From contig CABZRS010000001.1 of assembly GCA_902528135.1 (NCBI GenBank), forward strand, positions 62,001 through 126,000: a stretch of DNA of 64,000 bases. Reading direction: 5' to 3'. The position numbers and the translations under genes are program-made. The DNA comes from an uncultured Pelagibacteraceae bacterium (GTDB lineage: Bacteria; Pseudomonadota; Alphaproteobacteria; Pelagibacterales; Pelagibacteraceae). The notes beneath the pieces were generated by a model. The model did no database searches. It was not told the DNA's origin and saw nothing but the letters and a program-made list of their open reading frames with translations. Shown here piece after piece: positions 31,753-49,346 of the stretch (positions within the stretch are counted from its first letter, which is position 1; each line of letters opens with the position of its first letter).

Positions 31753-32904
31753 ATGAATTTAAAAGACTGTCACAATTTTGGTGATTTTAGAAAACTAGCT
31801 AAAAAAAAATTACCTTCTCCAATTTTTCACTACATTGACGGTGCAGCTGATGATGAGATAACGTATTCTAGAAATACTAGTGCTTTTGATGATGTTGATT
31901 TAGTTCCAAATGTTTTAAGAGGAGTTGAAAATGTTGATCTTTCAACAACAATATTTGGAAAAAAATTGGATTTACCATTTTATCTAGCACCTACAGCATT
32001 ACAAAGACTTTTTCATTATGATGGAGAAAGAGCAGTTGGAAAGGCAGCAAAAAAATTTAATACAATGTTTGGTGTTTCAGCTTTGGCTACAGTCAGTGTA
32101 GAAGAAATTTCTGCTATGATTGATACTCCTAAGATGTTTCAATTTTATTTTCACAAAGATAGAGGATTGAATGACTCTTGTTTAGAGAGAGCTAAAGCAG
32201 CAAAATTCGATGTAATGGCTTTAACGGTGGATACTATTACAGGTGGAAACCGAGAGAGAGATTTAAGAACTGGTTTTACATCTCCGCCTAAATTAACTCT
32301 ATCAAGTTTGTTTAGTTTTGCCACTAAGCCTATGTGGGGAATAAATTATATGACAAAAGGTAAATTTGAATTACCTCATCTTCAAGATTTTGTAAAAGAA
32401 GGTACAAGCACTAACTCCTCAATTGGAAGTTATTTTTCTACTATGTTAGACCAATCTATGAATTGGAAAGATGCAGAAAAACTTTGTTCTCAATGGGGTG
32501 GCCACTTTGCCCTTAAAGGTATTATGAGTGTTGAAGACGCAAAAAAAGCTGTAGATATTGGTTGTACTGGAATAATGGTTTCAAATCATGGTGGAAGACA
32601 ACTTGATGGGTCTAGATCTCCTTTTGATCAACTTGCAGAAATTGTTGACGCAGTTGGTGACAAGCTTGATGTTATATGTGAAGGCGGAATTCACAGAGGA
32701 ACTCATATGCTGAAAGCATTATCCCTCGGTGCTAAAGCTTGTTCAGGCGGAAGACTCTATCTTTATGCTTTAGCTGCAGCAGGTCAAGCAGGAGTGGAAA
32801 GAGCACTAAATCAATATAAAACAGAACTGCAAAGAGATATGAAACTAATGGGTTGCACAAAAATCAGTGATTTAAACAGAAGTAATTTAAGATTCAGAGG
32901 ATAA
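31753..32904 (+). CDS. FMN-dependent alpha-hydroxyacid oxidase/dehydrogenase, copy 1
   Basis: 383 aa TIM-barrel flavoprotein of the L-lactate dehydrogenase/glycolate oxidase family. N-terminal PSPIFHYIDGAADDE, the active-site SNHGGRQLDGSRSPFD with catalytic His279 and substrate Arg282, and the FMN-phosphate Arg334. Compared with the usual DGGVRRG loop, this copy has EGGIHRG (Glu310, His314), changes at residues that contact FMN. It oxidises L-2-hydroxyacids to 2-oxoacids, passing electrons to the respiratory chain or O2; the actual substrate is unknown. Adjacent same-length paralogue begins at the last base of this gene. Confidence 0.92.
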   Translation: MNLKDCHNFGDFRKLAKKKLPSPIFHYIDGAADDEITYSRNTSAFDDVDLVPNVLRGVENVDLSTTIFGKKLDLPFYLAPTALQRLFHYDGERAVGKAAKKFNTMFGVSALATVSVEEISAMIDTPKMFQFYFHKDRGLNDSCLERAKAAKFDVMALTVDTITGGNRERDLRTGFTSPPKLTLSSLFSFATKPMWGINYMTKGKFELPHLQDFVKEGTSTNSSIGSYFSTMLDQSMNWKDAEKLCSQWGGHFALKGIMSVEDAKKAVDIGCTGIMVSNHGGRQLDGSRSPFDQLAEIVDAVGDKLDVICEGGIHRGTHMLKALSLGAKACSGGRLYLYALAAAGQAGVERALNQYKTELQRDMKLMGCTKISDLNRSNLRFRG

Positions 32905-34055
32905 TGAGTTTAAGCAATTGTTATAACTTTGATGATTTTAGAAAGTTAGCAAAAAAAAAACTTCCTGCACCTATTTTTCATTATATAGACGGAGGAGCAG
33001 ACGACGAAGTTACAATGAATAGGAACACTAACTCATTTAATGACTGTGATCTAATTCCTAATATTTTAAATAGTGTTGGTGAACCTGATTTAAAGACAGA
33101 GGTTTTTGGAACAAAAATGGATATGCCAATTTTTTTGTCTCCTACAGCTATGCAAAGTTTATATCACCCTGATGGAGACAAAGCTTCTGCTCGAGCTGCA
33201 GAAAAATTTGGTACGATATACAGTATGTCTACTATGGCATCTTTTTCGATTGAAGAAATTGCAAATCTTTCAAGTGGTCCAAAAATTTTTCAATTATATA
33301 TTCATAAGGACCAATCTATAACTAATGATTTAATTGATAGATGTAAGAGGGCAAACTTCAATGGAATGTGTATTACAGTCGATACTATTGTTGCTGGAAA
33401 CAGAGAAAGAGATCATAGAACAGGTTTTACAACACCACCAAAATTTACTTTAGATAGTTTAATGAGTTTTGCTATGAGACCTCAGTGGGTGTTTAACTAT
33501 TTTACGCATAAGAAATTTGAATTAGCAAATCTTAAAGATAAAGTTGATAAGGGTACAAATATTGCCCAATCCGTTATGGGGTATATAAATGAACAATATG
33601 ATCCTGCCATGAATTGGAAAGATGCAGAATATTGTATAAAAAAATGGGATGGTCCAATTGCACTTAAAGGAGTTATGTCAGTTGATGACGCTAAAAGAGC
33701 AATAGATATAGGATGTACTGCTGTGATGATATCAAATCATGGAGGAAGGCAACTTGATGGGTCTAGATCTCCTTTTGATCAAGTAAAAGCTATCAGAGAT
33801 GCTGTAGGAGATAAATTAGAGGTAATTTTAGATGGTGGAGTTCGAAGAGGAACTCATGTTCTTAAAGCATTAGCAGCAGGTGCGACAGCTTGTAGTTTCG
33901 GTAAAGCTTTTTTGTTTAGTTTAGGGGCTGGTGGTCAACAAGGAGTAGAAAGATTACTGCAAAATATGCATGATGAAATAAGACGTAACATGATATTGAT
34001 GGGATGCAAAAGTATAAAAGATCTGGATGAGTCTAAAATTATCTATAGAAGATAA
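32904..34055 (+). CDS. FMN-dependent alpha-hydroxyacid oxidase/dehydrogenase, copy 2
   Basis: 383 aa, a tandem paralogue aligning without gaps at the key sites to the gene upstream. It has SNHGGRQLDGSRSPFD and an intact DGGVRRG loop (Asp310, Arg314), but Lys334 in place of the FMN-phosphate Arg (SFGKAFLF), the reverse of the pattern in copy 1. Overlap of one base with copy 1 means co-translation. The pair may be heteromeric or specialised for different hydroxyacids such as lactate and glycolate; that is inference. Confidence 0.92.
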   Translation: MSLSNCYNFDDFRKLAKKKLPAPIFHYIDGGADDEVTMNRNTNSFNDCDLIPNILNSVGEPDLKTEVFGTKMDMPIFLSPTAMQSLYHPDGDKASARAAEKFGTIYSMSTMASFSIEEIANLSSGPKIFQLYIHKDQSITNDLIDRCKRANFNGMCITVDTIVAGNRERDHRTGFTTPPKFTLDSLMSFAMRPQWVFNYFTHKKFELANLKDKVDKGTNIAQSVMGYINEQYDPAMNWKDAEYCIKKWDGPIALKGVMSVDDAKRAIDIGCTAVMISNHGGRQLDGSRSPFDQVKAIRDAVGDKLEVILDGGVRRGTHVLKALAAGATACSFGKAFLFSLGAGGQQGVERLLQNMHDEIRRNMILMGCKSIKDLDESKIIYRR

Positions 34056-38852: not shown

Positions 38853-40394
38853 ATGAAGATGAAGACAATAAAAACTTGCGTAACTGCTCTTATATCAGCT
38901 TTGTTGGTATTTAGTCCTGTTGCGTATGCTGATAAGTGGAGTGATCAATTTCCACATATCAAAACCACTGGGGATATTCCTGGTGAGTGTTCTTACGAGT
39001 CAATGTCAAAAAAAGACTACTCTGGTAAAACACTAAAAATAAACACGCATGCTGTGCCAGTTATGGGTGAGCCAACAGCTCTTCATGCTGAACAGTTTGC
39101 TAAATTAACTGGAGCAAAAGTTGATGTAACTCATACACCAGCTGGAGACCTATATGCAAAAGCTATGGTTCCTTTCCAAGCAGGTCAAGCTCCTTACGAT
39201 ATAGTATTTGGATTTTCTAATTTCATTAATGATTGGAGAAGATACCTAGAGCCAGTGCCAAAAAAATATGTTGAGATGAAACAAATGCAAGACGTTACTC
39301 CATCTCATATTGGTGTAGCTTCTTGGGATGGTGTTATGTATCAGTTTCCAGTTGATGGAGATAGACATTATCTTAAATATAGAAAAGATGTCATTGATAA
39401 TCCTGAATATCAAAAAAAATATAAAGCCGATACTGGTAAAGAGTTAAGAGTTCCACAAACTTGGAAAGAGTATGGAGAAATGGCTGCATACTTTAATGAT
39501 TGGGACTGGGATGGTGATGGTGAGAAAGAATATGGATCAGCAGAGGTTATGAAAAAAGATGACCTTATGTATGCTGCTTTCTATTCTAGATCAGCTGCTT
39601 ATTCTAAAAATCCAAAAACACCAGGTGGTTTTTTCTTTGATTTAGATACAATGACTCCACTTATTAATAATCCGGGTTTTGTAGAAGCTCTAACTGACTG
39701 GGTTGCAGCTACTAAATACGTTCCACCAGGAGGAATTAACTTCGGTTTAGGTGATGAAATTGGATCATTTGGTGGTGGACAAACTTTATTTAGTTTTTCA
39801 TGGGATGACGCATTTGTTGCAGCTATGCAACCAGACAGTCCAATTAACAATAAAGTTGGTGCTGCACAACTACCAGGTGCTATGAAAGTTTGGAATAGAA
39901 AATCTAATTCTTGGGATGAAGGTTTTAACCAAGCTCCTTTCTTCGTATGGGGATGGGCAGTTGGAGTTGCTAAGAAAAGTAAAGAGAAAGAAATGGCATT
40001 TGACTATTTGTGTTTCTTTGCTAACGAAGCAAATCACCAAGCTGATATAGGAATTGGTAGATTTGGAGTAAATCCATTTAGAAATGATGACTTTAAAGCT
40101 GAAGTTTGGACACAAATCGGTTGGGACAAAGATATTGCAGAGTCTTATGTAGATACTCTTGCAAAAATGGAAGAAAGTAAAAATAGAGTTTTTCCATTAA
40201 GAGTTCCAGGTACATTTGAGTTTAACGCTGCACTAGCAACTGCTGCAGCAAAAGCTTTAGCCGGACAATTATCACCACAAGCTGCTCTAGATGAAGCTGC
40301 TAAACAGTGGAATGATATACTTAATAGAGTAGGAAAAGATAATGTAAGAAAAGCTTACTCCGTTGGTGTATCAATGGAAGATAATAAGCTTTAA
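38853..40394 (+). CDS. ABC transporter extracellular solute-binding protein (family 1, GlpV-like)
   Basis: 513 aa with a signal peptide (VTALISALLVFSPVAYA). Family-1 periplasmic binding protein fold: LKINTHAVPVMGEPTALHAE, FQAGQAPYDIVFGFSNF, WGWAVGVAKKSKEKEMAFDYL (quoted in part). The size and the layout SBP - permease - permease - ATPase - ATPase resemble the rhizobial glycerol importer GlpSTPQV; substrate could be glycerol or a similar polyol. Residues 218-228, DWDGDGEKEYG, form a calcium-binding-type DxDxDG loop. A strong hairpin follows the stop codon, probably keeping SBP levels above those of the membrane parts. Confidence 0.9.
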   Translation: MKMKTIKTCVTALISALLVFSPVAYADKWSDQFPHIKTTGDIPGECSYESMSKKDYSGKTLKINTHAVPVMGEPTALHAEQFAKLTGAKVDVTHTPAGDLYAKAMVPFQAGQAPYDIVFGFSNFINDWRRYLEPVPKKYVEMKQMQDVTPSHIGVASWDGVMYQFPVDGDRHYLKYRKDVIDNPEYQKKYKADTGKELRVPQTWKEYGEMAAYFNDWDWDGDGEKEYGSAEVMKKDDLMYAAFYSRSAAYSKNPKTPGGFFFDLDTMTPLINNPGFVEALTDWVAATKYVPPGGINFGLGDEIGSFGGGQTLFSFSWDDAFVAAMQPDSPINNKVGAAQLPGAMKVWNRKSNSWDEGFNQAPFFVWGWAVGVAKKSKEKEMAFDYLCFFANEANHQADIGIGRFGVNPFRNDDFKAEVWTQIGWDKDIAESYVDTLAKMEESKNRVFPLRVPGTFEFNAALATAAAKALAGQLSPQAALDEAAKQWNDILNRVGKDNVRKAYSVGVSMEDNKL

Positions 40395-40403
40395 AAATAC
40401 TTA

Positions 40404-40430
40404 TTGTGGCCGTCAACTCGACGGCCACAA
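40404..40430 (+). promoter_or_regulatory. mRNA hairpin between binding-protein and permease genes
   Basis: Perfect 11-bp stem TTGTGGCCGTC / GACGGCCACAA with loop AACTC. There is no U-run behind it and the next gene follows 28 bases later on the same strand. Such hairpins protect the upstream mRNA from 3' exonucleases and lower read-through, giving a high binding-protein to permease ratio. Confidence 0.75.
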
Positions 40431-40457
40431 ATTTAATAAATCCAAAAAATTATATTT

Positions 40458-41324
40458 ATGAATTTTAAGCACAAGTTTGTTTTTTTATTTCCAGGTTTAT
40501 TTGTGCTAATAGGAATACTTATATTTCCTATCATTTTTACAATAAGATTAAGTTTATCAGGATGGAACAGTTATACGCCTGAGATGAATTTTATTGGAAT
40601 TACAAACTATATAAGACTGTTTACAGATGATCCAAGATTTTGGGAGTCATTTTTCAGATTAAGTTTTTTATCAGTAACAACAGTTATACTTCAATATGTA
40701 ATAGGTTTTGCATTAGCACTTATGGTTTGGAGAGAAATAAAATTTAAAAGGTTTTTTAGAGTAATTTTCTTAATTCCAATGATGACTACGCCAGTTATTA
40801 TGACAGTAATTTGGAGAACTTTTTTCCATGAGTCTCTTGGGCCAGTAAATGACCTTTTAGGAAATATAGGGGTTAAACCTATTTTATGGCTCAGCGATCC
40901 AGTTATAGCTAAGTTTACTGTAATTATCGTTGAAGTATGGCAATGGACGCCATTTATGTTTTTATTACTACTTGCTGGTCTTTTATCTCTTCCTAAGGAA
41001 CCTTTCTTAGCCGCTGCAATTGATGGAGCAAGTCCTTATAGAAAGTTTGTTTATGTTACATTTCCATTAATGGCTCCTATTTCAATTGGTGCAATTATCA
41101 TAAGATTAATTGAGGCCTCAAAAATAATGGATACTGTTTTTGTTCTGACATCTGGAGGACCTGGAACTGCAACTGAAACCTCAAGTTTTTATATTTATAT
41201 TAAAGGATTAAGAGAATTTCAAATGGGTTATGCTGCAACACTTTCATTTACCTATCTGGTTATAATGATCATAAGTTTAACCATCATAGCAAAAGTTTTA
41301 ACAAAATTAATGATTAAGGAATAA
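40458..41324 (+). CDS. ABC importer permease 1 (MalF/UgpA type)
   Basis: 288 aa, six membrane helices. The cytoplasmic EAA loop reads AAAIDGASPYRKFVYVTFPLMAP (quoted in part: AAIDGASPYRKF), which docks on the ATPases. It corresponds to GlpP in the glycerol-type system. Overlaps the second permease gene by one base. Confidence 0.93.
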   Translation: MNFKHKFVFLFPGLFVLIGILIFPIIFTIRLSLSGWNSYTPEMNFIGITNYIRLFTDDPRFWESFFRLSFLSVTTVILQYVIGFALALMVWREIKFKRFFRVIFLIPMMTTPVIMTVIWRTFFHESLGPVNDLLGNIGVKPILWLSDPVIAKFTVIIVEVWQWTPFMFLLLLAGLLSLPKEPFLAAAIDGASPYRKFVYVTFPLMAPISIGAIIIRLIEASKIMDTVFVLTSGGPGTATETSSFYIYIKGLREFQMGYAATLSFTYLVIMIISLTIIAKVLTKLMIKE

Positions 41325-42172
41325 TGGAAAAGCTCTATACATTTTTAAAATATACCTTTATCACTCTTTGGACAGTTTTTATTGTTGCCCCTTTTCTCTG
41401 GGCTGTTTCTACATCATTTAAAGATTTTCAATCAGTAAATAGTAAAGTTACTTATATTCCTTGGTTAGATTTTGAACCAACACTAGAGGGATGGCGTGTA
41501 TTAGTTAAATCACCTGCAAGAGGCGGGGTCGATATTGTCGAACCATACTTCAATAGTATTTTTGTAACTTGCACTGCAAGTTTAGTTAGTATTGTTTTGG
41601 GGACTTTGGCTGCTTATGCTTTATCAAGGTTTACTTTTAAAGCAGGCTTTGTAAGAAATAATGACATTACTTTCTTTTTTATATCTCAAAGAATTATGCC
41701 ACCGATTGTTTTATCAATACCTTTCTTTATATTTTTAAGTACGATTGGATTATTAGACAGCCTACTTGGCTTAGTGGTAGTTTATATTGTATTATTAATG
41801 CCAATTGCAGTTTGGATAATGGTCGACTTTTTTAATAGAGTGCCAAAAGAATTAGATGAAACTGCATTGATCGATGGATGTAATCCTTATCAAGCATTTT
41901 ACAAAGTTGTGCTACCAAATTCTATACCAGGATTAATTGTAGCTGGAATGTTTTGTATAATATTTGGTTGGATAGATTTTTTCTTTGCTTTTATTTTAAC
42001 TTTTACCGAAGTACAGTTGCTACCAGTAAAAGTTGTAGCATTAAACTCATCAATTACTCCATGGTGGAGTTTGTCAGCCTCTGCATTAATTTCAGTTGCA
42101 CCGTTAATTATTGTAGCGTTTGTAGTTGAACGATATTTATCCAAAGGAAATTTATCTGGAGCATTGAAATAA
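41324..42172 (+). CDS. ABC importer permease 2 (MalG/UgpE type)
   Basis: 282 aa, six membrane helices; the EAA loop is ETALIDGCNPYQAFYKVVLP. It pairs with the permease encoded upstream to form the transmembrane channel (GlpQ equivalent). One-base overlaps on both sides (41324 and 42172) show tight coupling with permease 1 and ATPase 1. Confidence 0.93.
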   Translation: MEKLYTFLKYTFITLWTVFIVAPFLWAVSTSFKDFQSVNSKVTYIPWLDFEPTLEGWRVLVKSPARGGVDIVEPYFNSIFVTCTASLVSIVLGTLAAYALSRFTFKAGFVRNNDITFFFISQRIMPPIVLSIPFFIFLSTIGLLDSLLGLVVVYIVLLMPIAVWIMVDFFNRVPKELDETALIDGCNPYQAFYKVVLPNSIPGLIVAGMFCIIFGWIDFFFAFILTFTEVQLLPVKVVALNSSITPWWSLSASALISVAPLIIVAFVVERYLSKGNLSGALK

Positions 42173-43251
42173 TGAATTTAATTGGAGAACATATAACTTA
42201 CAAACCAGATGACCAATTTCATTTAAATAATGTATCTTTTAATTTTAAAAAAGGAAATCTATACACAATTTTAGGAAGAACTTTGTCTGGAAAAACCACA
42301 TTTCTAAAAACAATTGCTGGTTTGCTAAATCCTGATAGTGGAAATTTATCTTTTGAGGAAAAAGATTTTAGCAAAATTCCAGTCTGGGAAAGAAATGTGG
42401 CCATGGTTTATCAACAATTTATTAATTATCCTCACCTTAACGTTTATGAGAACATTATTTTCCCGCTTAAACAAAGAAAACTAAGCCAAGATAAAATTAA
42501 GACCGATGTTGAAGAAGCCCTTAAGACTGTAGGGTTAATTGGTTTTGAAAATAGAAAAATTCAAGAATTATCAGGAGGTCAGCAACAAAGAGTAGCTCTT
42601 GCTAGATCTTTAGCTAAGAAAGCTAAGATATTACTTCTAGACGAACCATTAGTAAATCTTGATTATAAGCTTAGAGAACAATTAAGAGAAGAATTTAAAA
42701 AAATTTTCTCTGAAGGTATGTCACAAGAAACGATTTTAATTTATTCAACAACAGATCCACAAGAAGTGATGGAGTTAAATGGAGAAGTAATTGTTCTTGA
42801 TGAGGGAAAAGTTTTACAAAAAGGACCTGCAAAAGAAATTTTTGAAAACCCATTAAATTTGAAAGTTGCAGAGATTTCAAATGACCCTCCAATGAACATT
42901 TTAAAAGGACTAAAAAATTTAGACAATTTAAATTTTGAAAATATTTCTATTAAATCTCCTAAACATTTCAAACACCTTGAAAATCAAAACTACAATTTTG
43001 GAATTAGAGCGTCAGAAATAAAATTAGATGAAAATGGTGAAGAATTTGAAATTGAACTTGCAGAAATTAGTGGATCTGAAACTTTACTTCATTTAAAAAA
43101 AGGTAATTCAAAATTGATTGCATTAATTGAAGAAGTAATGAATTTTAAGATTCATCAAAAAGTTAAAATAATTTTTAATTCAAATAAATTTTATGCATTT
43201 AATCAGAGTGGAGAGTTAGTATCTTCACCATATGGAATAAACAATGGCTAA
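42172..43251 (+). CDS. ABC importer ATPase 1, H-loop His replaced
   Basis: 359 aa. Walker A GRTLSGKT (35-42), canonical signature LSGGQQQR (133-140), Walker B ILLLDE (153-158). The switch histidine is missing: the usual VTHDQ reads STTDP (Thr194). The C-terminal OB-like regulatory domain (from about 240) is of the MalK/UgpC type. Partner of the ATPase encoded at 43244, which has the complementary defect (normal H-loop, abnormal signature). Equivalent to GlpS. Overlaps ATPase 2 by 8 bases. Confidence 0.93.
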   Translation: MNLIGEHITYKPDDQFHLNNVSFNFKKGNLYTILGRTLSGKTTFLKTIAGLLNPDSGNLSFEEKDFSKIPVWERNVAMVYQQFINYPHLNVYENIIFPLKQRKLSQDKIKTDVEEALKTVGLIGFENRKIQELSGGQQQRVALARSLAKKAKILLLDEPLVNLDYKLREQLREEFKKIFSEGMSQETILIYSTTDPQEVMELNGEVIVLDEGKVLQKGPAKEIFENPLNLKVAEISNDPPMNILKGLKNLDNLNFENISIKSPKHFKHLENQNYNFGIRASEIKLDENGEEFEIELAEISGSETLLHLKKGNSKLIALIEEVMNFKIHQKVKIIFNSNKFYAFNQSGELVSSPYGINNG

Positions 43252-44317
43252 AATAGATTTATCAAATATTTCTCATTCATATAATCCTAATGATGCAAAT
43301 CCAACGTATGCATTAAATCCATTTTCAATGACTTGGGAAAATGGCAAAAGATATGCAATTTTAGGACCATCAGGCTGTGGTAAGACAACTATGCTAAATA
43401 TTGTTTCAGGTTTAGTTAAACCATCTAAAGGGAATATTTTATTTGATGAAAAAGATGTAACAAATCTTATTACTGAAGAAAGAAATATAGCACAAGTTTT
43501 TCAGTTCCCAGTTATTTATAGTACAATGACTGTTTATGATAACCTAGCCTTTCCCTTAAAGTGTAGGAACTTTTCCAAAGAAAAAATTGATGAAAGAGTA
43601 AAATCAGTTTCAGATACTTTAAGACTTTCATCTTTTTTAAATTTACCAGCCAGAAAACTTACTGCAGATCAAAAACAACTCATTTCACTTGGAAGAGGAT
43701 TGGTAAGAGAAGATGTTGCAGGTGTATTAATGGACGAACCATTAACTGTAATTGATCCGGATTTAAAATTTAGACTTAGGAGAAACCTAAAAGAAATTAA
43801 TGATCAATATAAAACGACTCTAGTCTACGTAACCCATGATCAAAATGAAGCTATGACGTTTGCTGATAATATTATTGTTATGGATCAGGGAGAAATAGTC
43901 CAAGTTGGACTTCCAAAAGATCTTTTTGAAAGACCCAAAACAACATTTGTCGGTTACTTTATTGGATCTCCAGCCATGAATATTTTTGAAAGTCAGGTCT
44001 CTTCTGAATATTCTGTAAAAATTAATAATATTGAAATTAAAACAAACTCGAACCTCACGAAATTAAAAGATAAAAACGTAAAACTTGGGATTAGGTCAGA
44101 ATTCATAAATGTTGTAGAAAAAGAGGGTGAAAATACAATTAAAGCTTCACTTACTAGAGTTGAAGATTTTGGAAATTTCAAATTATTGACGGCAAATATG
44201 GATAATTTTGTAATCAAATCTAAAGTGGATAGAGAATTGCCAATTTCAATTGGAGATATCAATCTTTATATACCCCCTGAAAAATGTTGTGTGTATGAGA
44301 ACGAAAAGTTAATTTAA
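43244..44317 (+). CDS. ABC importer ATPase 2, signature motif altered
   Basis: 357 aa. Walker A GPSGCGKT (41-48), Q-loop in NIAQVFQFPVIYS, Walker B GVLMDE (160-165) and a normal H-loop VTHDQNEAMTF (His198). The ABC signature LSGGQ is replaced by LTADQ (139-143, then KQLISLGRGLVR). C-terminal MalK-type domain. Very similar in layout to rhizobial GlpT, which I recall having the same LTADQ. With ATPase 1 it would give one canonical and one degenerate ATP site. Last gene before a terminator. Confidence 0.93.
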   Translation: MAKIDLSNISHSYNPNDANPTYALNPFSMTWENGKRYAILGPSGCGKTTMLNIVSGLVKPSKGNILFDEKDVTNLITEERNIAQVFQFPVIYSTMTVYDNLAFPLKCRNFSKEKIDERVKSVSDTLRLSSFLNLPARKLTADQKQLISLGRGLVREDVAGVLMDEPLTVIDPDLKFRLRRNLKEINDQYKTTLVYVTHDQNEAMTFADNIIVMDQGEIVQVGLPKDLFERPKTTFVGYFIGSPAMNIFESQVSSEYSVKINNIEIKTNSNLTKLKDKNVKLGIRSEFINVVEKEGENTIKASLTRVEDFGNFKLLTANMDNFVIKSKVDRELPISIGDINLYIPPEKCCVYENEKLI

Positions 44318-44422: not shown

Positions 44423-45556
44423 ATGATTAAAGACAAAAAATCTTTGAAGGTAAAAAAATCACCTTCAAGACGTAAGTTCTTTAAAGCTGCTGCTGCAACG
44501 GGTGTTGCTGCTGTTGCTGCATCATCTTTAGCTGCTCCAGCTGTTGCTGCTGAAAGAATAGAAGCATCAATGGTTGCTACTTGGGGAAGAGATTTTCCAG
44601 GTCTAGGAACAGGAGCACAAAGATTTGCACAAAGAATAACAGACATGAGTGACGGTAGAATACAAGTTACTTACTATGCTGCTAACGAAAGAGTTAAAGC
44701 TTTTGACTCATTTGATGAAGTAGCATCAGGTAACTCTCAAATGTATCATGCCGCTGACTATTACTGGGTAAAGAAAAATCCTGCTTGGGGTTACTTTACT
44801 GCAGTACCTTTTGGTTTCACTTACACTGAAATGAATGCTTGGATCAGATTTGCTGGTGGTCAAGAGTTATGGGACGAACTAGCAGATGGTTTTGGTCTTA
44901 AAAACTTCATGTGTGGTGATACAGGAGTTCAAATGGGTGGATGGTTTAACAAAAAAATCAGAAGTCCAAATGACTTTAAAGGTTTAAAAATGCGTATGCC
45001 TGGTTTAGGTGGACAAGTAATTGGTAAACTTGGAGGTTCTCCAGTTTCACTACCTGGTGGACAGATTTATGAAAACTTAGTTTCTGGTGCAATCGATGCA
45101 ACAGAGTGGGTTGGTCCATGGAATGACGAAGCTATGAAATTCCAAGAAGCTGCTAAATACTACTACTATCCTGGTATGCACGAGCCTGGATCAATGTTAG
45201 CATGTGGAACTAATAAGTCTTGGTTCACAAGCTTATCTAAAGCTGACCAATTATTAATCGAAGCTGCTGCAGCAATGGAAAATGACGTTATGATGTCTGA
45301 GTACAATGCTAAAAATGGTGCAGCACTTGCAAGATTGATTAATGATCATGGTGTTAAACTAGAGAAGTTTAGCGACAAGGTTTATGACGGTTTTGGAAAA
45401 GCAGCAGAGGAAGTCTTTGAGGAGACAAGAGCGAGTAGTGGTCTTGCTGAAAGAATCCATACAAGTTTCTTAAAAGCTAGAAAAGAAATTGGTGCTTGGA
45501 CAAACCTATCAGACTCACCTTACATTCAGCAAAGAAACAGAGTGCTAGGAATGTAA
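44423..45556 (+). CDS. TRAP transporter substrate-binding protein, 2-oxoacid (TakP-like)
   Basis: 377 aa. Twin-arginine signal SRRKFFKAAAATG followed by AVAASSLAAPAVAA, so it is exported folded. The mature part closely follows the TakP pattern of Rhodobacter: LGTGAQRFAQRI, MYHAADYYWVKKNPAWGYF, CGDTGVQMGGWFNKK, KMRMPGLGGQVIGKLG (Arg for the carboxylate), and AIDATEWVGPWNDEAM. TakP binds pyruvate and other 2-oxoacids with a metal ion, so uptake of 2-oxoacids is likely. Strong ribosome-binding site (gaggagaa). A terminator separates it from the membrane subunits. Confidence 0.93.
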   Translation: MIKDKKSLKVKKSPSRRKFFKAAAATGVAAVAASSLAAPAVAAERIEASMVATWGRDFPGLGTGAQRFAQRITDMSDGRIQVTYYAANERVKAFDSFDEVASGNSQMYHAADYYWVKKNPAWGYFTAVPFGFTYTEMNAWIRFAGGQELWDELADGFGLKNFMCGDTGVQMGGWFNKKIRSPNDFKGLKMRMPGLGGQVIGKLGGSPVSLPGGQIYENLVSGAIDATEWVGPWNDEAMKFQEAAKYYYYPGMHEPGSMLACGTNKSWFTSLSKADQLLIEAAAAMENDVMMSEYNAKNGAALARLINDHGVKLEKFSDKVYDGFGKAAEEVFEETRASSGLAERIHTSFLKARKEIGAWTNLSDSPYIQQRNRVLGM

Positions 45557-45576
45557 TTACGTTTTTTATGTAATTG

Positions 45577-45605
45577 AAAGGGCCCTTAATTGGGCCCTTT
45601 TTTTT
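45577..45605 (+). terminator. Rho-independent terminator after the TRAP binding-protein gene
   Basis: 9-bp stem AAAGGGCCC / GGGCCCTTT with loop TTAATT and an uninterrupted run of T (8 including the stem end). It lies 20 bases after the stop codon and 40 before the small-permease gene, so most transcripts should end here and binding protein will exceed membrane subunits. Confidence 0.9.
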
Positions 45606-45645: not shown

Positions 45646-46695
45646 ATGGACGCCAAAAGTAAAAGTATTCATCTTTATTTAAGAATTATAAGCTATTCAG
45701 TGATAGCTTTTACATTAGCTTTTTTATTAAACAACCTTCTTACTGTTTGGGCAGAATGGCCTGGTGTAAGAAAAATTTTCTCTCACTACGAATTGTTTGG
45801 TCATAAACAAAAATCATTACAGGGATCAGACTTAAATCTTGGTTATATGCAAATTGGATTATATCTGATTTGTATAGGACTTCTGATTTTTTACGTATTT
45901 AAAACATATTCCCAAACTTTAGAAACAGACTCAGAAATATTATCAAAATTTTCAGCTTACATAGTGAGGTCATCTTTTTGGGCCGTATTCTTAGTTGGTT
46001 TGGCTGATTTTATTATATCTTTTATGGTTGTTGAAAGATTATGGGAAACAATATTTAGTCCAGAAGTTAAAGCCTTTATGGTCAAAGCTCCTGAAAGGAT
46101 AACATTTATACACTTTCCAATTATAGCAGTTTCGTTCATTATTGGTTACTTTACTAAATCTGTCGGTTTTATCTGGCTAGCAGTTTTAGTTGTCTTAAGT
46201 GAATTTTTTATAGTTTTATCAAGATTTATATTTTCATACGAACAAGCTTTTCAAGGAGATCTTGTAAGGTTTTGGTACGCAGCATTATATTTATTTGCAA
46301 GTGCTTACGCATTAATACACGAAGGTCATGTTAGAGTTGATGTTTTATACTCTAATTTTAGTGAAAGGAAAAAAGCATGGACTAATGCAATTGGTTCTGC
46401 AGTACTTGGGGTACCACTTTGTTTAATTGTTATTTTTTTAGGGTTAAATGGAAAAGCAAGTATTATTAATGGACCAGTGGTTGCTTTTGAAGTAACACAG
46501 CAGGGTTCTAATGGATTATATTTACTTTATTTAATGGCAGTGTATCTAGCAGTATTCGCTATTACGATGTTGTTACAGTTTACAAGTTTTTTTATGAGTA
46601 GCAGTTACAAGCTTCTGTTGAATGAGAATGAGTCGAAAATTTCAAATGTGAATAATACAAACGAAGTTAATGTAGAAAACATGGAAAGCCAATAG
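45646..46695 (+). CDS. TRAP transporter small permease (DctQ type), enlarged
   Basis: 349 aa, about twice the usual size. The DctQ-like four-helix core is in the C-terminal half (SRFIFSYEQAFQGDLVRFWYA and YALIHEGHVRVDVLYSNFSERKKAW, quoted in part). The N-terminal part adds about three to four hydrophobic segments (12-32, 65-85, 105-125, 150-165). Large Q subunits of this kind occur in TakQ-type systems. The last 25 residues are an Asn/Glu-rich tail. Its stop codon shares a base with the GTG start of the large permease. Confidence 0.88.
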   Translation: MDAKSKSIHLYLRIISYSVIAFTLAFLLNNLLTVWAEWPGVRKIFSHYELFGHKQKSLQGSDLNLGYMQIGLYLICIGLLIFYVFKTYSQTLETDSEILSKFSAYIVRSSFWAVFLVGLADFIISFMVVERLWETIFSPEVKAFMVKAPERITFIHFPIIAVSFIIGYFTKSVGFIWLAVLVVLSEFFIVLSRFIFSYEQAFQGDLVRFWYAALYLFASAYALIHEGHVRVDVLYSNFSERKKAWTNAIGSAVLGVPLCLIVIFLGLNGKASIINGPVVAFEVTQQGSNGLYLLYLMAVYLAVFAITMLLQFTSFFMSSSYKLLLNENESKISNVNNTNEVNVENMESQ

Positions 46696-49346
46696 TGGAA
46701 TTATTTTTCTTAGCAGTTTTGGTTTTAATTATGATTGTTGCTCTTGCATCTGGTTACCCAGTTGCATTTGCTCTACCAGGTTCAGCTATAATATCTATAG
46801 GTTTAGCGGCCTTTTTTGGCTATTTATTTGAGGGAGATGCTGATGCATTCTTCGCAGTAGATGGGCCAATTGAATGGCTTGTTGCTGGAATAACTAATTT
46901 TAGAAGTAACTATTGGGATGTAGAAACAGACACCTTAATTGCAATTCCTTTATTCATTTTTATGGGAATTATGCTTCAAAAATCTAAAATTGCTGAAGAT
47001 TTATTAATTACAATGGGTCAGTTATTTGGTCCAATTCCAGGAGGTTTAGGTATCTCAGTTATATTTGTTGGTGCTTTATTGGCTGCAACGACAGGTATTG
47101 TAGGAGCAACAGTAATTGCAATGGGATTAATCTCATTACCAACAATGTTGAATAACAATTATGACAGAAAACTTGCAAGTGGAATTGTATGTTCCTCTGG
47201 AACACTTGGACAAATTATTCCTCCATCTATCGTATTGATTATTATTGCAGACCAATTAGCGAGTGCGTCTGATGTTGCAAATAATATGAGACAGAATGAT
47301 TACAAAGCTTTAACTGGTGAATTTAACATGCCAGGTGAATTTAGAGTTGGATCATCAAGTGCTGGGGACATGTTCCTTGGCGCACTTTTGCCGGGATTAG
47401 TATTGGTAGCTCTTTATATGATTTATGTTTTCTTCTATGCAAGAATCAAAAAAGGAGTTGCGCCGCCAGTTCCATTTAAGGGTGAATTTAATTTTAGATT
47501 TTGGATGAGAGTAATTGTTATTATTATTCCACCTCTTGCATTAATATTTGCAGTTTTAGGTTCTATATTAATGGGTATTGCAACTGTTAACCAAGCTGGT
47601 TCTATTGGTGCCATAGGTGCAACACTAATGGCAGGTTACAGATTATTTGAAGGAAAGAAAAGTGCCTTTTATCCTCTTTTACTTATTATAGGTTCGTTGA
47701 TACCAATCACTTTTTTCGCCTCAAATTATGAACTCAACATAAAAAATTTAGAAGAAAGAGATATTGGAGCAATATACGCAACTGCTTTCTTTGTTATCCT
47801 TCTTGTAATCGGAATATCATGGAGCTTCTGGAGAACTTATAAAACAGAGAATGTTTTAAAAGAGGTTGTTACTGAGACTTGTATAACTACTTCAATGGTA
47901 TTTATCATTCTTTTAGGAGCTGCGATGCTTACTTCTGGATTTAGAGCGTTTGGTGGTGAGGAATTAGTCAGAGATTTCTTACAGGATTTACCTGGTGGAT
48001 TTTGGACTCAGTTTGTAGTTGTTATGATTGTAATATTTTTACTGGGTTTCTTTTTAGATTTTATTGAAATTGCTGTTGTTGTTGTTCCAATAATTGCACC
48101 AATATTGTTGGCTGAAACAGGAGCTAATGTAACGGCAGTTTGGTTAGGAGTTATGATTGGAGTGAACTTACAAACTTCTTTTCTAACCCCACCATTTGGA
48201 TTTGCATTATTTTATTTAAAAGGTGTAGCTCCAAAAGTAGTGCAAACACTAGATATTTGGAAAGGCGTTGTACCATTCATAGTTCTTCAGCTTATTGGTT
48301 TAGCTATTGTTGGTTCTTATCCATCACTTGTGAATTATCTTCCTAACAGAGTTTATTTAACTTCAAATGTAGCACCACCACCAATGAATCCTAAGCTACA
48401 GTATTGTCTACAAGAATATAAATTTGCAAATTATACAAATAATGCGGATTTAATAAAGAATAGTATTGACGATTTTGACTCAATTATACTTGCAAATTTA
48501 CCAGCTGATAAACTAAGTTATTTCCAACGTCACGTAGATAATTCAAATTACACTTTCGAATTAGTTGATGAAGTCAAAAGTGCAGAAGCTATTTATAACG
48601 ACTATGCCGTTGATTATAGAGACTTGCATTTTAAGACTAGAAAAAAGCAGAAGAAAATTTCTAAACTCAATAAAAAAATTGATAAATATAAAGCCGAAAT
48701 TAGAAATTTAGATGATGATGAGGTTTCAGAAAAAAATAAAATTGAACAAAGAATTGAAAATGTAAAACTTGAAATTGAAGAAATCGCCAATTCAATTTCA
48801 AAAGACTGGAAACCAAAGAATGATGAATTTAATAAGATTAATAAAGCTAAAAATTTAGCTGTTAAAAAATATCGTAAAACAGCAGATAATGCATACGATG
48901 ATTTAATGCTTATTAAATTATTTATTTTAGATGGAGAAAAATTTGAAGAATTGAGTAATGATATTAAAATTCTTAAATCTAAAATTGATAATCGAGGTTA
49001 TCTAGATGCTATAGATCATATTGACAATATGTTTGACAAAGTTGGAGAAATATCAGGTTCAGATGAATTTGCAGATAAATTAGATTACTTGATAACTATT
49101 ATGGATGAAGATGAAAAAGATCCCGATCAAATTGCAAAAATAGCTAATGAGACTTATGCACATTTTGATAAAGAGGTAAGTTGGAGAAATGAATTTCAAA
49201 AAAAATATATTGATAGAATAAATAATCACTTACAGGTACTAAGCGATAATATTGGCTTAAGGTTACAGCAAAAACTCACTAAAGAACAAGCGATTTATGT
49301 TTCGAGATGTAATTCAGTGCACAGAGATATTTCTTTAAACTTTTAG
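46695..49346 (+). CDS. TRAP transporter large permease (DctM type) with soluble coiled-coil C-terminus
   Basis: 883 aa starting with GTG at 46695. Residues about 1-545 are the DctM membrane part: FALPGSAIISIGLAAFF, IPLFIFMGIMLQKSKIAEDLL, GIVCSSGTLGQIIPPSIVLI, FIEIAVVVVPIIAPILL, and LQTSFLTPPFGFALFYLKG. From about 550 the protein has no membrane segments: a soluble domain follows with a highly charged coiled-coil stretch (about 645-740, KKQKKISKLNKKIDKYKAEI type) and further helices to 883. Usual DctM proteins are 425-650 aa, so the extra 330 or so residues are exceptional; no frameshift or stop separates the parts. Likely substrate 2-oxoacids, from the TakP-like partner. Confidence 0.9.
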   Translation: MELFFLAVLVLIMIVALASGYPVAFALPGSAIISIGLAAFFGYLFEGDADAFFAVDGPIEWLVAGITNFRSNYWDVETDTLIAIPLFIFMGIMLQKSKIAEDLLITMGQLFGPIPGGLGISVIFVGALLAATTGIVGATVIAMGLISLPTMLNNNYDRKLASGIVCSSGTLGQIIPPSIVLIIIADQLASASDVANNMRQNDYKALTGEFNMPGEFRVGSSSAGDMFLGALLPGLVLVALYMIYVFFYARIKKGVAPPVPFKGEFNFRFWMRVIVIIIPPLALIFAVLGSILMGIATVNQAGSIGAIGATLMAGYRLFEGKKSAFYPLLLIIGSLIPITFFASNYELNIKNLEERDIGAIYATAFFVILLVIGISWSFWRTYKTENVLKEVVTETCITTSMVFIILLGAAMLTSGFRAFGGEELVRDFLQDLPGGFWTQFVVVMIVIFLLGFFLDFIEIAVVVVPIIAPILLAETGANVTAVWLGVMIGVNLQTSFLTPPFGFALFYLKGVAPKVVQTLDIWKGVVPFIVLQLIGLAIVGSYPSLVNYLPNRVYLTSNVAPPPMNPKLQYCLQEYKFANYTNNADLIKNSIDDFDSIILANLPADKLSYFQRHVDNSNYTFELVDEVKSAEAIYNDYAVDYRDLHFKTRKKQKKISKLNKKIDKYKAEIRNLDDDEVSEKNKIEQRIENVKLEIEEIANSISKDWKPKNDEFNKINKAKNLAVKKYRKTADNAYDDLMLIKLFILDGEKFEELSNDIKILKSKIDNRGYLDAIDHIDNMFDKVGEISGSDEFADKLDYLITIMDEDEKDPDQIAKIANETYAHFDKEVSWRNEFQKKYIDRINNHLQVLSDNIGLRLQQKLTKEQAIYVSRCNSVHRDISLNF

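Follow-up and report, generated by a model that had tools for sequence, protein, structure and literature searches.

A long, predicted helical tail conserved on the large permease of a TakP-like TRAP transporter in Alphaproteobacteria

Main finding

In a window of 64,000 nucleotides from an uncultured Pelagibacteraceae bacterium, we found that the large permease, DctM, of a DctP-type TRAP transporter ends in a soluble tail of about 335 residues that recurs across Alphaproteobacteria, is most likely periplasmic and is predicted to be helical. The system would be a TakP-like importer of alpha-keto acids in which the tail of the large subunit forms a helical arm on the periplasmic side. A disulfide that joins Cys571, at the membrane-proximal base, to Cys872, near the C-terminus, probably closes this arm. 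A coiled-coil hairpin (604–671 out, 677–745 back) would project into the periplasm, where the arm, together with an N-terminal extension of DctQ, might dock or retain the TakP-like binding protein, possibly via the RNRVLG-type C-terminus of DctP, and docking would thereby link the delivery of substrate to the movement of the elevator. It is an open question in TRAP systems how the elevator transporter is coupled to a binding protein that diffuses freely. If the proposal is true, this subfamily, whose periplasmic arm is built in and whose members include some of the most abundant bacteria of the ocean, would lend itself to studying that coupling.

Layout of DctM and its tail

The dctM frame begins with GTG and holds 883 codons (46695–49346, + strand; Table 1). 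The start codon shares one base with the dctQ stop codon (window 46693–46697), an overlap that suggests translational coupling of the two genes. The membrane domain matches PF06808 (E 4.4e-64, 217 bits against a cut-off of 23.8); the NCBIfam model TIGR00786 (dctM) scores 251.9 bits, under its curated cut-off of 268.45, and the window protein is therefore a divergent DctM.

The final hydrophobic segment lies at about 521–541, and no further hydrophobic or transmembrane (TM) segment was found in residues 540–883, which hold 54 K+R and 61 D+E. The tail runs from about residue 549, at position 48339, so the extent given by the sequence-only reading (48340–49346) was right to within one base, and 46% of residues 645–740 are charged, in agreement with the charged stretch that it placed there. 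Averaged over 30 homologues, hydrophobicity peaks at 100–104 degrees, the coiled-coil period, in both 604–671 and 705–745, and 0 of 2000 shuffles were as strong. The open frame, the absence of a TM segment after about 541 and this periodicity together bear out the earlier proposal of a large soluble coiled-coil domain fused to DctM. No Pfam or NCBIfam family matched the tail above cut-off; there were sub-threshold coiled-coil matches only, and identities as TIGR03185 (DndD) or SMC-type proteins were rejected as resemblance of this kind.

Table 1. Features of the dctPQM cluster, in window positions
Feature	Position	Strand	Remark
dctP, TakP-like substrate-binding protein, Tat-type signal	44423..45556	+	family match; six TakP ligand residues kept
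DctP C-terminal motif QRNRVLG	45530..45550	+	characteristic of tailed systems
Terminator-like hairpin between dctP and dctQ	45576..45601	+	kept in the majority of SAR11 orthologues
dctQ, small permease, 349 aa	45646..46695	+	Pfam DctQ matches 187–309 only
DctQ N-terminal extension, residues 1–154, about four predicted TM helices	45646..46107	+	tailless systems have a short DctQ without it
dctM, TRAP large permease, 883 aa	46695..49346	+	Pfam DctM match 4.4e-64
DctM membrane part, residues 1–548	46695..48338	+	58–68% identical among tailed orthologues
Membrane-proximal base, residues 546–578	48330..48428	+	VNYLPNRxxLTSxxAPPPxNPxLQxC; near-invariant, dN close to 0
Cys571, first invariant tail cysteine	48405..48407	+	30/30 diverse, 56/56 SAR11 sequences
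Ascending long helix of predicted coiled-coil hairpin, residues 604–671	48504..48707	+	AlphaFold2 pLDDT mostly 72–96; 104-degree periodicity
Hairpin tip, residues 672–676	48708..48722	+	length variable between homologues
Descending helices, residues 677–745	48723..48929	+	conserved IPxxW and YRRxVDxAY
Additional helices, residues 747–852	48933..49250	+	largely missing from shortened homologue L166
C-terminal motif, residues 853–883	49251..49343	+	IGLRxQxxLxxxxAxxVxxCxSxHRDISLNF; conserved throughout Alphaproteobacteria
Cys872, second invariant tail cysteine	49308..49310	+	proposed disulfide partner of Cys571

Distribution and conservation of the tail

Twelve genomes of the genus encode a full-length DctM (71–95% identity), and two more hold a C-terminal piece of it at a contig end. 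Relatives are encoded on 298 contig stretches, of which 80 were kept, all of them SAR11 single-cell or metagenome contigs with an essentially full-length frame. A SAR11-specific tail was rejected, as a class-wide search finds it across Alphaproteobacteria, in 31 of 385 sampled genomes together with one likely fragment at a contig edge. Nearly all of these proteins have 883–890 aa and lie within dctPQM clusters, with two shortened members among the 30 aligned; they are 58–68% identical to the window protein in the membrane part and 17–30% in the tail, with SAR11 sequences higher. When a tail profile was run on a phylum sample of 399 genomes, strong matches occurred in seven, all Alphaproteobacteria, and all eight such matches sit within frames of 885–903 aa; there were also two marginal short matches, one of them outside Alphaproteobacteria. 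No relatives were found among viral contigs, and the plasmid matches listed cover up to 67% of the query, none reaching 80%.

A membrane-part tree, for which the first 560 residues were used and which therefore takes in a dozen residues of the base, unites the 30 tailed proteins in a single clade (support 100/100). The closest tailless DctM proteins are 43–48% identical, and most of them stop no more than a few residues from position 554. No loss of the tail was found, and both shortened members keep part of it. The first, L166 (799 aa), has its tail cut to 252 residues, with most of 747–840 gone; hairpin, C-terminal motif and the two cysteines are all still there, which makes it a naturally occurring partial deletion of use for tests. 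The second, L165 (864 aa), is shorter close to the hairpin tip. As a separate observation, one DctM of the tailless clade (L189, 599 aa) extends about 79 residues past its membrane part, a length unrelated to the tail studied here, and three tailless relatives (L192, L193, L195) lie in open frames of 696–737 aa with a predicted protein of 510–528 aa, the excess probably being upstream.

Within the tail, the base (551–578) is almost invariant and the C-terminal motif ending in HRDISLNF is conserved throughout the class, while the middle diverges fast, to about 25% identity. The dN/dS values (about 0–0.04 at 551–578, 0.05–0.22 at 579–850 and mostly 0.02–0.05 at the C-terminus) are rough because dS is often above 1 and saturated, and all lie well below 1. 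An assembly-error fusion or a decaying read-through has a negligible probability given these values and the recurrence of the complete frame (twelve genomes of the genus, about 80 contigs from single cells, 31 genomes of the class), and we rejected it. The sequence-only reading had named an independent gene at the same place, or a tail without conservation, as what would speak against a fusion. No stand-alone tail gene was found in the genus, the 385 alphaproteobacterial genomes or the 399 of the phylum sample, and the tail is conserved; neither objection holds.

Predicted structure of the tail

Structure prediction of the tail alone, another check that had been suggested, was carried out with AlphaFold2 on an alignment of 66 SAR11 sequences and gave an all-helical model with a coiled-coil hairpin, pLDDT being mostly 70–96 over 579–853. 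The modelled helices are 604–670, followed by a turn, 677–700, 705–745, several shorter ones and 810–852. The first of these, about 67 residues long, is predicted to form an intramolecular coiled-coil hairpin, and at 1.5 Angstrom per residue the helix 604–671 would measure about 100 Angstrom. Confidence is low in both models at the base and over the last 29 residues (pLDDT below 50 in the tail model), and the models give no guide to the C571–C872 contact. The membrane part of the full-length model is unusable (pLDDT about 21–45) because the alignment held only close SAR11 sequences. A Foldseek search of the PDB with the tail gave no fold match at E <= 0.001.

Side of the membrane

Published TRAP structures place the end of the large subunit outside the cytoplasm: both ends of PpSiaM are outside (N-out/C-out) and its final TM helix is part of the transport domain (PMC9971032), and the DctM C-terminus of FnSiaQM was placed in the periplasm by its authors (PMC11801797). 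Fusions of P to the C-terminus of M are also found in nature (PMC9352664). The present system resembles PpSiaQM and HiSiaQM in its DctM fold, elevator architecture and Q plus M composition (PMC9971032, PMC9352664), and its membrane part is about 120 residues longer. That part seems to contain an extra pair of TM helices at about 325–378, by which parity would be kept.

The tail contains exactly two cysteines, in columns C571 and C872, in all 30 of the diverse orthologues and in all 56 of the SAR11 sequences examined. This is the pattern that a conserved disulfide would give and it fits an extracytoplasmic domain; the genome encodes DsbA and DsbB. Judged from the C-out topology of TRAP structures, the invariant pair and the presence of DsbA/DsbB, the tail is most likely periplasmic, a location that we regard as well supported, and the C571–C872 bond probably closes it, although an intermolecular disulfide is possible instead. 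Since the arm comes after the last DctM helix, it would, by homology, ride on the moving elevator domain.

This location bears on several readings of the tail. The sequence-only reading had suggested that it might bind the downstream enzymes or sense metabolic state, and a cytoplasmic scaffold of this kind could draw on the dehydrogenase genes upstream in this genome. The published C-out topology (PMC9971032, PMC11801797), the two invariant cysteines with no others and an enzyme neighbour that is not conserved all argue against both functions, and we consider such a scaffold extremely improbable.

No conserved enzyme or catabolic gene was found beside dctPQM in other Alphaproteobacteria. Operon partner enzymes were likewise rejected, the conserved neighbours appearing to be housekeeping genes; by eye, we take the recurrent ones to resemble parC, a leucyltransferase, motAB, recO, era and bioY. 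A sensory or signalling role in the periplasm, with the tail informing a regulator of substrate, would be in line with helical periplasmic bundles, which can act as sensors, and with the helices that residues 747–852 add alongside the hairpin. Next to the system, however, no regulator or kinase is conserved, housekeeping genes being the neighbours in other Alphaproteobacteria, and the idea is very unlikely.

Tethering, a further suggestion of the earlier reading, falls away on the cytoplasmic side given the C-out topology and would have to take place within the periplasm. The arm could tie the transporter to peptidoglycan, an outer-membrane protein or the like, or set periplasmic spacing, as its helix 604–671 could span about 100 Angstrom and the hairpin is charged and variable towards its far end. 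Family searches, however, found no known envelope-binding domain in the tail, and the conserved parts of the arm are the base, the C-terminus and mid-stalk rather than the tip, which leaves envelope attachment improbable.

Partner subunits and a possible docking function

Both partner genes have Pfam matches above cut-off (DctQ, PF04290; DctP, PF03480), and the cluster recurs in other genomes. The enlargement of DctQ that the sequence-only reading had noted (349 aa) lies in an N-terminal extension and is general: complete DctQ genes encode 327–358 aa in tailed systems versus mostly 175–208 aa in tailless ones, the extra 150 or so residues being N-terminal with about four predicted TM helices. 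Every readable DctP of a tailed system ends in an RN motif, usually QRNRVLG, compared with none of the tailless ones shown, and the nearest tailless relatives have neither the DctQ extension nor an RNRVLG-type DctP end. After correction for core proteins, partial Mantel tests gave a partial r of 0.35–0.41 between divergence of the tail and of the DctQ extension, and of 0.32 between the tail end and the DctP end (26 loci). With 26 related loci the test is too lenient on kin sequences, and the co-divergence of the tail with both partners is suggestive only.

An arm that follows an elevator helix, faces the binding protein and is accompanied by changes in both partners favours docking or retention of DctP, a hypothetical function to which we give a little less than an even chance; the fast divergence of the tail middle, unusual in a docking surface, speaks against it. 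A different role would leave the binding protein untouched, the arm and the DctQ extension serving as a structural stator that locks Q to M or builds an obligate dimer or larger assembly. The tail and the DctQ extension always co-occur with correlated divergences, HiSiaQM dimerises weakly via Q (PMC10942642), and oligomers are commonly built through coiled coils. Nevertheless, tailed and tailless systems differ at the DctP C-terminus as well, the AlphaFold hairpin is intramolecular, and the arm follows the elevator helix rather than the scaffold, and we regard this structural role as rather unlikely and less probable than docking.

In the gap between dctP and dctQ, the terminator-like hairpin (45576–45601) reads GAAAGGGCCC-TTAATT-GGGCCCTTTT followed by a T-run (z -4.7), and the orthologous loci of SAR11 mostly contain the same palindrome. 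Such a structure could leave more dctP than dctQM transcript.

Relation to known transporters

The closest parallel is VcGluQM, a TAXI-TRAP of Vibrio cholerae whose C-terminal DUF3394 "claw" is predicted to contact the binding protein (PMC11574862). In both, the extension sits at the C-terminus of a TRAP membrane component and includes a domain that is, or here most likely is, periplasmic, and the claw is sporadic in its own family. The claw, mainly beta, is flanked by extra TM helices, of which this TAXI type has three at the C-terminus, whereas our tail lacks any TM helix, is predicted to be all-helical, carries a conserved cysteine pair and belongs to a DctP-type system. DUF3394 was not among the families reported for the tail and no TM segment follows residue 541; we consider the tail an analogue of the claw, but unrelated to it. 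The P2 loop of MalF in the maltose ABC importer, with which the claw has been compared (PMC11574862), is also a periplasmic domain that helps to hold a binding protein, but it has another fold in another transporter class, and the analogy is functional only. PpSiaQM and HiSiaQM lack a C-terminal arm and have a Q with four TM helices. Natural M-P fusions exist (PMC9352664) and differ from the present case, in which dctP stands as its own gene and no DctP-family match was found in the tail.

According to the VcGluQM paper, a C-terminal extension of this sort was previously unreported for DctP-type TRAPs (PMC11574862), and we found no later report of one in the open-access literature, the scope of our search. 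We tentatively propose, at rather less than even confidence, that the tailed systems are an undescribed DctP-type class, ancient in Alphaproteobacteria, in which a disulfide-closed periplasmic coiled-coil arm on the elevator domain would capture or hold the binding protein together with the multi-helix DctQ extension, all three subunits bearing matching additions.

Substrate and flanking genes

The matches of the window DctP are binding proteins of the pyruvate and keto-acid types (4pet, 5cm6, 7ug8 and TakP 2hzk), TakP itself being only a moderate match (4e-62). Transporters of the TakP type take up 2-oxo acids by way of a binding protein that is a helix-swapped dimer. In TakP of Rhodobacter sphaeroides TakPQM, six residues bind sodium and pyruvate (PMC1839085); the present DctP shares its fold family and all six ligands. 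Their equivalents (Y100, Q156, R177, E214, W215 and E240) are kept in 26 of 26 tailed systems, which upholds the earlier assignment to a TakP-like system and makes a 2-oxo-acid substrate likely. Tailless relatives also have TakP-like binding proteins, and transport of this kind thus does not generally require the arm.

Two groups of upstream genes were read by eye. Upstream of the transport genes lie two adjacent, similar genes for 383-aa FMN-type alpha-hydroxyacid dehydrogenases (window 31753–34055), and directly upstream of dctP is an ABC importer with two different ATPase genes (38853–44317), which resembles glycerol-type importers. In the window and some SAR11 genomes, panE-acs-ggt stands downstream of dctM, before an MFS gene (L015–L019 and L169 compared with L001, L171 and L172); in L169 the MFS gene comes directly after dctM.
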